DNA from: an uncultured Gammaproteobacteria bacterium
GTDB lineage: Bacteria > Pseudomonadota > Gammaproteobacteria > Steroidobacterales > UBA11654
Direction of reading: 5' to 3'
DNA: 32,364 nt
Assembly (NCBI GenBank): GCA_902634075.1
Contig: CACPJA010000013.1
Span: 1 to 32,364, forward strand
Position 1 is the stretch's first letter, and every line of letters starts with the position of its first letter. A model generated the notes under the pieces. The model had not been told where the DNA came from, searched no databases, and saw only the letters and a list, made by a program, of their open reading frames with translations. Below, piece after piece: positions 421 through 30,871 of the stretch. The position numbers and the translations under genes are program-made.

Positions 421-1209
421 ATGAAAACATTAGAACATCTATCAGTATTAAAAATTAGTGGAGATGATGCTACCGAGTTTCTGCAAGGTCAAATGACACA
501 AGACACCGGCGAACTAAATGATGATCAAATACATCTGACATCCTTCTGCAATCCGCAAGGCAGAATCATTGCAACTTCTTTAATACAATATTGGAATGAA
601 GCCTACTATCTTATTCTAAGTTCTGATCTAATTGATGATCTTGAAACCCATCTTCAGCGCTATATTCTCAGGTCAAAAGTCACTGTAGAGCAAAGCGAGA
701 GAATGGTATTCGGCATTTATACAAATAACTCTGTCAGCAATCAACAATTGTTTAAATCACTTTCGAATGATTCAGAAAGAATGTTAGCACTTGCAAATCA
801 AGTGCCTGAAAACATTGATGACTTTATTGCAAGCGAAGAATGGATTCAGTGTGATATTAAAAAAAAGATACCAATAATTACCAAGGAGAGCTCTCAAAAA
901 TTTATTCCTCAAATGCTCAATTTGGATATTTTAGATGCAGTCAGTTTTTCAAAAGGTTGCTACACGGGTCAAGAGGTTATAGCAAGAGTTCAACATAGAG
1001 GTAAAATTAAACAACGAATGTTTATAATAAATGATGAGAACCAAAGTCATATTCCAATTGGTTCAGAAATTCAAAATGAATCAAAGAAAGTTGGAACTGT
1101 TGTTATTTCTGCATTGATCAATGAAAAATCTACTAGTCTTGCTGTAATTAATACTTCTGATTCTGGGAATCAATTGAATATAAGGAATAAAGGAATCGTC
1201 CTCTTATAA
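421..1209 (+). CDS. ygfZ: Folate-binding tRNA-modifying/Fe-S maintenance protein YgfZ
   Basis: Contains the YgfZ/GcvT-like motif KGCYTGQEVIARVQHRGKIKQRM; length 262 aa. Confidence 0.9.
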   Translation: MKTLEHLSVLKISGDDATEFLQGQMTQDTGELNDDQIHLTSFCNPQGRIIATSLIQYWNEAYYLILSSDLIDDLETHLQRYILRSKVTVEQSERMVFGIYTNNSVSNQQLFKSLSNDSERMLALANQVPENIDDFIASEEWIQCDIKKKIPIITKESSQKFIPQMLNLDILDAVSFSKGCYTGQEVIARVQHRGKIKQRMFIINDENQSHIPIGSEIQNESKKVGTVVISALINEKSTSLAVINTSDSGNQLNIRNKGIVLL

Positions 1210-1220
1210 AAGTTGATTGC

Positions 1221-1838
1221 TTATTTTGTTTCCTGATTTTCTTCACAAATATAATATCTTCCCCAGTCACCATATATAGACTGATGCTCATAGATTATCT
1301 TCCTGGCATAGTTTCTATTTTCAATGATGGCCCAATCTGCCCTTTGGCTAAAATTCTCAACATTATTCCACCATTTTTGTGGGTTACCTCCACGTGACTT
1401 TGTTAGTTTTTTATCTCTATTTAACCAAGTAAGACCTCCATTATATGAACTCAAAACCATTGCCCATTGTTCACATTCATTTTCAGATGAAATCCTCTCA
1501 TACAACCAATTGTCATAGAGCAACATTGCTCTCATGGACCATTTCGGATTGTATACATTAGCTCTTTTTAACTCTGGATAGACATCCACTATCCAATCAG
1601 CTGTACTTCGAGTAAATTGACTTAGGCCTTCGGCATACTTACTTTTCGCAAGATGATTCCATGAACTTTCTTGGTGTATTTGAGATGCAAATAAAGGAAT
1701 CGGAGCATTTAAGCCCCAAACAATTCGAGAATGCCTAATTAAGTCTCTTTTGTATTTAAGACTAGATCTTGGTGCTTCAGCATTGAGTTGAGGAATAATA
1801 AGAAAAAAAATAAGAAAAGTGACAAACAGTCTTATCAC
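1221..1838 (-). CDS. Lytic transglycosylase (SLT domain), endolysin-like, with N-terminal signal/anchor
   Basis: Hydrophobic N-terminus MIRLFVTFLIFFLIIPQLNA, then IHQESSWNHLAKSKYAEGLSQF (E-S catalytic motif and GLxQF) and LSSYNGGLTWL (AYNGG-like motif). GTG start overlaps the upstream stop (GTGA). Confidence 0.8.
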   Translation of the reverse strand: MIRLFVTFLIFFLIIPQLNAEAPRSSLKYKRDLIRHSRIVWGLNAPIPLFASQIHQESSWNHLAKSKYAEGLSQFTRSTADWIVDVYPELKRANVYNPKWSMRAMLLYDNWLYERISSENECEQWAMVLSSYNGGLTWLNRDKKLTKSRGGNPQKWWNNVENFSQRADWAIIENRNYARKIIYEHQSIYGDWGRYYICEENQETK

Positions 1839-2119
1839 AATGCCATGGAGATACCCAATATGGTACCAAAAATAATAATCGCCCTTCTAATTGCAATTGA
1901 AGCCCTAATAATTGGGTCCTTTTCTATTTTATCAATCACTCCTGGCCTCATATGTGGAAATAACAAATAGTCTATCCAATAGCCAAGGATTGCCGCCAAT
2001 GAAACTAAACTTGCTTTGAATATAATCACGGGAATCTGAGCTGGGCTGATTATGAAAACCATCCCTAAGAGTAATAATGTAACTAAAACAAATAGAGATC
2101 TATTAATTGGATTTTGCAT
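1835..2119 (-). CDS. Small membrane protein resembling putative 2/3-TM phage holin family
   Basis: 94 aa with 2-3 hydrophobic segments and the motif 'KASLVSLAAILGYWIDYLLFPHMRP'. Directly precedes and overlaps the lytic transglycosylase gene. AGGAG ribosome-binding site upstream. Confidence 0.6.
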   Translation of the reverse strand: MQNPINRSLFVLVTLLLLGMVFIISPAQIPVIIFKASLVSLAAILGYWIDYLLFPHMRPGVIDKIEKDPIIRASIAIRRAIIIFGTILGISMAL

Positions 2120-2136
2120 GGGTTACTCCTTTAAAA

Positions 2137-3627
2137 CTATTTATTTCTCATATGAGGGAATAACAAAACATCTCTTATTGAAGGTTTATCAGTGAAAATC
2201 ATCGTTAACCTATCGATCCCCACCCCGAGACCTGAAGTTGGCGGCATTCCATATTCTAATGCTTCTATGTAATCTTCATCGTAAACCATAGCCTCATCGT
2301 CTCCACTATCTCTTTCCTTGACCTGATCCTTAAAACGTTGTGACTGATCATCGGGGTCATTTAATTCATGAAATCCATTTGCCAATTCTCTTCCTGCTAT
2401 AAAGAACTCAAAACGATCAACCAACCAAGGGTCCTCATCATTAGCTCTTGATAAAGGAGAAACATCTTTTGGATAAGCTGTAATAAATGTGGGTTCAATC
2501 AAATGCTCTTCAACTGTTTTCTCAAAGATCTCTAATAGTAGTTTTCCAGCTGGCATGTCTTTACTGTTTTTGATCTTAAGTTTCTTACAAACTCCCAATA
2601 GATAGTGCTGATCTCTTAATTTTTCTCGATTCATATCGGGATTAAATTCCATCACTGATTCCTCTAGAGTAATTCTTTTATATGGACCCGATAAATCATA
2701 CTCCTTATCCTGATATGTAATTGTTGTAGAGCCATATAGACCTTTAGAAATTTCTATAACCATTTCCTCAACCAAGGTCATGATCTCCTCATAAGAGGCA
2801 AATGCTAAATAAAGTTCTAGCATTGTAAACTCGGGATTGTGTTGGGTGGAAACGCCTTCGTTCCTAAAGGAACGATTGATTTCATAAACTCGATGCATAC
2901 CCCCGACAACCAAACGCTTCAAATAAAGCTCAGGTGCAATTCGAAGATAAAAATCCTTATCCAGAGTATTGTGATGAGTAACAAATGGTCTAGCAATAGC
3001 ACCGCCTGGGATTGGCTGCATCATTGGTGTTTCAACTTCAAGGATTTCTTGTTCGTTTAGATACTTTCTTATGGTAGTAATAATTTTTGATCGATTTTCA
3101 AAAACATCCCTACTCTCATCAGACATAATCAAATCGAGATATCTCTTGCGATATCTGGTTTCGGTATCTGTGAGACCATGGTATTTCTCCGGCAAGGGTC
3201 TTAACGATTTTGTGAGCAACTCAATTTCATTAGCATTAATAGTTAGTTCATCGGTTTTAGTTTTAAATAATGTTCCTTTGACCCATAAAATATCGCCGAC
3301 ATCATAGGTTTTAAACTGTTCATAGAGTTCTTCAGAAACATTCTTTGAATTAATAAATATCTGAATAGAGCTTGTTCCGTCTTTAATTTTAGAGAAACTG
3401 GATTTACCCATAATCCTCTTAGCCATCATTCTTCCAGCAATGGCTACCTCTTTATTAAGATTTTCAAGATCCTCTTTACTGGATTCTTCGTGGTTGTTAT
3501 TTAAGTCAATACAATAACTATCAATGGGAATGGGTTTAGGAAAATTAAATCCTGACTCTCTAAGTGAGCTAAGTTTAGATCGCCTTTCTTTAATGAGTTT
3601 ATTCTGATCTTCTTTTTTTTCTGACAT
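2137..3627 (-). CDS. lysS: Lysyl-tRNA synthetase (class II)
   Basis: Class II motifs: RYRKRYLDLIM, FRNEGVSTQHNPEFTMLE, GLGVGIDRL; adjacent to prfB as in many gammaproteobacteria. Confidence 0.97.
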   Translation of the reverse strand: MSEKKEDQNKLIKERRSKLSSLRESGFNFPKPIPIDSYCIDLNNNHEESSKEDLENLNKEVAIAGRMMAKRIMGKSSFSKIKDGTSSIQIFINSKNVSEELYEQFKTYDVGDILWVKGTLFKTKTDELTINANEIELLTKSLRPLPEKYHGLTDTETRYRKRYLDLIMSDESRDVFENRSKIITTIRKYLNEQEILEVETPMMQPIPGGAIARPFVTHHNTLDKDFYLRIAPELYLKRLVVGGMHRVYEINRSFRNEGVSTQHNPEFTMLELYLAFASYEEIMTLVEEMVIEISKGLYGSTTITYQDKEYDLSGPYKRITLEESVMEFNPDMNREKLRDQHYLLGVCKKLKIKNSKDMPAGKLLLEIFEKTVEEHLIEPTFITAYPKDVSPLSRANDEDPWLVDRFEFFIAGRELANGFHELNDPDDQSQRFKDQVKERDSGDDEAMVYDEDYIEALEYGMPPTSGLGVGIDRLTMIFTDKPSIRDVLLFPHMRNK

Positions 3628-30756: not shown

Positions 30757-30828
30757 TCCTTGTTTGGGTTAAACTCCCATAAACCCCATGCAAAACTTAG
30801 TAAAAACTTAAGCACCCATTACATGTGT

Positions 30829-30871
30829 CGATTTATGTTCGATTTATTTATGCAAAATTGCCGACGATTTA
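30829..30871. repeat. Three CGATTTA direct repeats in the rpsB/map intergenic region
   Basis: CGATTTA at 30829-30835, 30840-30846 and 30865-30871; the last overlaps the predicted -10. Confidence 0.6.

Follow-up and report, generated by a model that had tools for sequence, protein, structure and literature searches.

We asked what a holin-like gene and a wall-cutting enzyme gene, arranged as in a phage lysis cassette, are doing between the housekeeping genes lysS and ygfZ of an uncultured gammaproteobacterium, and whether they are a relic, a lysis device or a working part of the cell. The pair lies near the start of the window, by which we mean the whole stretch of DNA analysed (32,364 nucleotides of contig CACPJA010000013.1). 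We conclude with high confidence that the pair is real, derived from a phage, fixed in its genus and under selection, and for its present function we weigh several readings below.

We found that the two open reading frames and their coupled overlap lie exactly where the initial annotation had placed them, both on the reverse strand. The first, at 1835–2119, starts with ATG and encodes a holin-like membrane protein of 94 aa, and the second, at 1221–1838, starts with GTG and encodes a lytic transglycosylase (LT) of 205 aa. The stop of the holin gene and the start of the LT gene share four bases, GTGA (1835–1838, reverse strand), through which the two are probably translationally coupled, and the corresponding junctions overlap or touch in relatives as well. 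Upstream on the same strand, lysS (2137–3627) ends 17 bases before the holin start; this gap (2120–2136, reverse strand) contains the Shine-Dalgarno-like AAAGGAG, no terminator-like site was called within it, and the gene order makes co-transcription of lysS and the pair probable. Downstream, ygfZ (421–1209, forward strand; GCV_T fold) converges on the pair.

Profile searches bear out the identities that had been read from the letters, namely a holin and a secreted, endolysin-like SLT protein. The 94-aa protein matches Pfam Holin_2-3 (PF13272; 67.2 bits with a cut-off of 27, E-value 1.7e-18) and the holin family phrog_1528 (E-value 5.3e-21, covering positions 17–116 of the 116 in the profile). 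Pfam matches to MerF (0.011) and CopD (0.044) fell below the cut-off, and we took them as composition effects. The predicted model has three long helices (residues 4–24, 26–53 and 69–93), and the residues conserved among phage holins (K, D, F, RP and RRA) are kept in an alignment with relatives, giving the protein both the 2–3 membrane helices and the conserved residues that characterise the family. Because these residues are retained, the predicted holin-like protein may still be able to make lethal holes. Foldseek returned nothing significant for its model against viral models, which is unsurprising for a small helical protein.

The LT is of the phage endolysin type, matching Pfam SLT (PF01464; 43.4 bits with a cut-off of 21.3, E-value 2.9e-11) and the endolysin family phrog_669 (E-value 8e-44). 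It has the SLT domain, catalytic Glu, GLxQF and YNGG motifs and fold of an LT, and the motifs IHQESSW, GLSQF and SSYNGG singled out in the initial annotation are all present. The candidate catalytic residue, Glu57, sits in HQESSW, and none of the 34 phage and bacterial homologues that we aligned departs from E57-S58 or Y132-N133-G134-G135. For the AlphaFold model (pLDDT 91.8), the top PDB matches in Foldseek are MltF, then MltE, MltC, MltD and Slt. A putative N-terminal Sec signal peptide identified by eye, MIRLFVTFLIFFLIIPQLNAEAP, makes export via Sec likely. The LT shares its fold and catalytic motifs with the cellular SLT-family LTs (MltF, MltE, MltC, MltD and Slt70), but unlike them it is a single small domain of phage ancestry, without accessory domains or a visible lipobox, and is coupled to a holin.

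Upon examining where the two families occur, we find the nearest annotated relatives of the pair in the holin/endolysin pairs of the Mu-like phages B3, JBD25 and PhiKM and of phage NCTB, with identities to B3 and PhiKM of 41–43% for the holin and 39–42% for the LT. The holin is adjacent to the LT in 79 of the 80 genome loci and 81 of the 84 viral loci searched, nearly all of them phage or prophage, and the same pair is described as BcepMu gp21/gp22 holin/lysin in the KS10 paper, which also predicts that the KS10 lysin carries a signal peptide (PMC2628397). In the trees, the sequences of the genus form a single clade apart from all sampled phage and prophage sequences, with branch support of 100% for the holin and 96% for the LT, and no close viral copy of the pair was found in IMG/VR, genus-specific scans of viral contigs included. 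With the cassettes of the BcepMu/B3/PhiKM type (holin, SLT endolysin, Rz/Rz1) the pair shares the two families, their order, their near or overlapping genes and, in the LT, an N-terminal hydrophobic or signal segment, whereas it differs in lacking Rz/Rz1 and phage genes alongside, in its chromosomal position behind lysS and in being fixed in one bacterial genus.

Holin_2-3 was found in eight of the ten genus genomes and in none of the 386 genomes sampled from the rest of the order; the two genus genomes without it are G003, which is 64% complete and has no lysS match either, and G006, in which the contig ends inside lysS. The pair stands between lysS and ygfZ in six of the eight (the source genome G000, G009, G004, G002, G008 and G005), with the holin starting 8–31 bases behind lysS and a Shine-Dalgarno-like site in most, and beside mscS in the other two (G001 and G007), where it is divergent from mscS and has its own upstream region. 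The survey of relatives that the initial annotation had asked for thus shows a pair which the genus keeps and a site, ygfZ–lysS, to which it is not tied. In G005, the LT and ygfZ are separated by a further gene (L055, 10132–11937), which from its sequence we named by eye as a BipA/TypA-like GTPase. Where the pair is absent from the site, in the sister-genus genome G010 and in G001, lysS and ygfZ meet at 12–24 bases, so that no other phage DNA accompanied the pair when it came in, or when it was lost.

The absence of phage neighbours, which had been remarked on from the window, extends to the genus: when the ORFs of its six loci in the genome scan were compared with our set of phage proteins, none but the two of the pair gave a match. 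Most other loci of that scan carry 5–18 phage-like ORFs. Phage structural or replication genes are absent beside the pair, and the window holds housekeeping genes. Outside the genus, the four phage-poor loci inspected (L077, L130, L109 and L111; a fifth, L139, on a short contig, was left out) gave no clean second phage-free case, with L077 and L130 carrying tail, head or other phage-like ORFs and L109 carrying phage-like ORFs; two of the four, at the least, are plainly of phage type.

Both genes are under purifying selection. Since many of the sequence pairs have saturated synonymous sites, we relied on the less saturated ones, in which dN/dS is 0.021, 0.028 and 0.057 for the holin and 0.084 and 0.164 for the LT. 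The GC content of the pair equals that of its neighbours and is host-like, and the frames are intact in the eight genomes, save for the LT of G007, which is cut by contig ends. Flags for an internal TAA in G001 and G007 were rejected as signs of decay, the frame in G001 being intact and the LT in G007 being cut in this way.

The initial annotation had also considered a relic of a prophage or gene transfer agent. Such a remnant, in decay and now functionless, would share the origin in a phage lysis cassette, but the intact frames, the dN/dS values well below 1, the lack of phage scraps around the pair, the short lysS–ygfZ gap where it is missing and the failure to find the HK97-type capsid family PF05065 in nine of the ten (incomplete) genus genomes, the source genome included, leave this reading unsupported and make it very improbable. 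An HK97-type capsid gene is present in one genus genome (G007:C79:3897-4715). Overall, the anatomy, monophyly, phage-free setting and selection support derivation from the lysis cassette of a Mu-like (BcepMu/B3-type) phage, captured and domesticated once by an ancestor of the genus.

Next, we considered which related enzymes the genus retains. The LT of the pair is the only SLT-domain protein found by a PF01464 search in six genus genomes; G004 has one further SLT protein, the copy in G007 is cut by contig ends, the sister-genus genome G010 has none, and five comparison genomes of the order have 1–5 each. MltG (YceG), which is common in gammaproteobacteria, was found neither in nine of the ten genus genomes nor in G010, and is present in all five comparison genomes; the sole match in the genus (G006:C24) may be contamination. 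MltB occurs in nine of the ten genus genomes, as does an RlpA-like DPBB protein; the source genome matches neither, absences that on their own mean little because it is only 77% complete. As the genomes are 64–92% complete, such absences hold collectively and not for any single genome. MltA was dropped as an informative marker, being absent from all 16 genomes tested. In Vibrio cholerae, LT activity is collectively essential, with at least one active LT needed for growth (PMC8820737). The LT of the pair need not be essential, since in G010 only MltB and RlpA were found, and not the pair.

That selection has kept the pair intact in genomes without most of the related wall-cutting enzymes suggests that a phage lysis kit is now part of normal wall upkeep or of controlled lysis. 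Because of the placement of the pair and the missing related LTs we favour wall turnover, and consider it somewhat probable that the LT now serves this purpose with the holin-like protein as a tolerated membrane partner or regulator. The LT would be exported by Sec into the periplasm and would cut glycan strands as one of the few LTs left to the cell, taking on the growth-related turnover done elsewhere by Slt70/MltC–F and MltG, and the coupled three-helix protein in the inner membrane would position it, or gate or time its action, without killing. Judging from gene order, expression would occur during growth, behind lysS; a position 8–31 bases behind that gene, in most genomes with a Shine-Dalgarno-like site, points to expression coupled to growth, and a lysis pair that kills freely should be incompatible with such expression. 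The complete scheme, in which the pair is the wall-turnover system of a streamlined marine genus (a label resting on record titles and isolate names), replaces the lost Slt/MltC–F and MltG, includes the holin as a partner of the LT, or a regulator of it, that does not kill the cell and is expressed with growth from the lysS operon, is put forward tentatively, at less than even confidence.

For a domesticated lysis module the initial annotation had offered programmed lysis, DNA or vesicle release and regulated wall turnover as possible roles; domestication is supported, whereas a lysis or release role is less favoured than wall turnover on the same grounds of placement and missing LTs. A module for programmed lysis would be low or silent in most cells until, in a subpopulation, triggering of the holin allows the LT to break down the wall, and DNA, vesicles or enzymes are set free. 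The holin and the LT do retain what is conserved among phage lysis proteins, and in the two mscS species the pair stands apart behind its own upstream region, but in six species it directly follows lysS, mostly with a Shine-Dalgarno-like site. Gram-negative phage lysis normally uses spanins, and no same-strand Rz/Rz1-like spanin ORF was found downstream in the genus loci. There is also no regulator or cargo gene beside the pair at the lysS–ygfZ or the mscS locus, where the neighbours are housekeeping or metabolic genes, and we regard programmed lysis as rather unlikely.

The missing cargo also bears on a type 10 secretion-like role, in which the holin and the wall hydrolase would open the wall without killing and a periplasmic protein would leave. 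There is precedent for holins and wall hydrolases in secretion (PMC9527704, PMC10109510), and the pair has both components; like Serratia ChiW/ChiX, the Salmonella ChiA operon, typhoid toxin TtsA and the Yersinia Tc lysis cassette, it is a phage-derived holin and wall hydrolase kept by a bacterium. However, it differs from these systems in having no regulator or linked secreted cargo (chitinase, toxin or nucleotidase) at either locus, in its hydrolase, which is an LT and not an endopeptidase or muramidase, and in the probable export of the LT by what seems to be its own Sec signal, where ChiX and TtsA need the holin. We therefore consider secretion of this type improbable.

The domesticated holin–hydrolase pairs known so far function in secretion or lysis, for the most part in pathogens, and have linked cargo genes. 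The pair described here has become fixed in a marine lineage with reduced genomes, where it apparently follows a housekeeping gene and supplies nearly the sole SLT enzyme. Literature searches found no published report of this locus. Routine turnover by the pair would mean that cells can tolerate a holin permanently as the partner of an enzyme that cuts their wall; a role in lysis would mean that these planktonic bacteria have lysis built in, through which dissolved matter and DNA would pass into seawater.

Finally, the pair has a history of exchange within the genus. The LT tree joins G000 and G009 with G004 (100% support), whereas the trees of prfB, eno, kdsA and surE group G004 with G002, G006 and G008 (100% support); the ygfZ tree resembles that of the LT and the lysS tree does not. 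Between G000 and G004, ygfZ, the LT and the holin are more alike than lysS, and ygfZ and the pair have apparently been exchanged jointly between species. The first 4.0 kb of the window are 99.7% identical to G009 (L228), compared with about 93% in the rest, and the identity changes abruptly near 4.0 kb, inside prfB; recombination is the likely cause, and a chimeric contig end may be an alternative one. This conflict with the species tree and the differing identities speak for a selfish or defensive cassette, spread by recombination among the species of the genus and, for example, stopping another phage by infection-triggered lysis, but the exchanged stretches also span the housekeeping genes sdhC, ygfZ and lysS and no sensor gene lies beside the pair, and we judge such a cassette quite improbable.

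The holin of the source genome is 89–94% identical to those of G002, G004 and G008, compared with 65–70% for lysS or eno; conservation above that of lysS and eno is unusual for a holin, and gene exchange is part of the cause. Elsewhere in the window, a t44 RNA (Rfam RF00127) lies at 30768–30859, in the position expected of this leader, 5' of a gene whose product resembles ribosomal protein S2.
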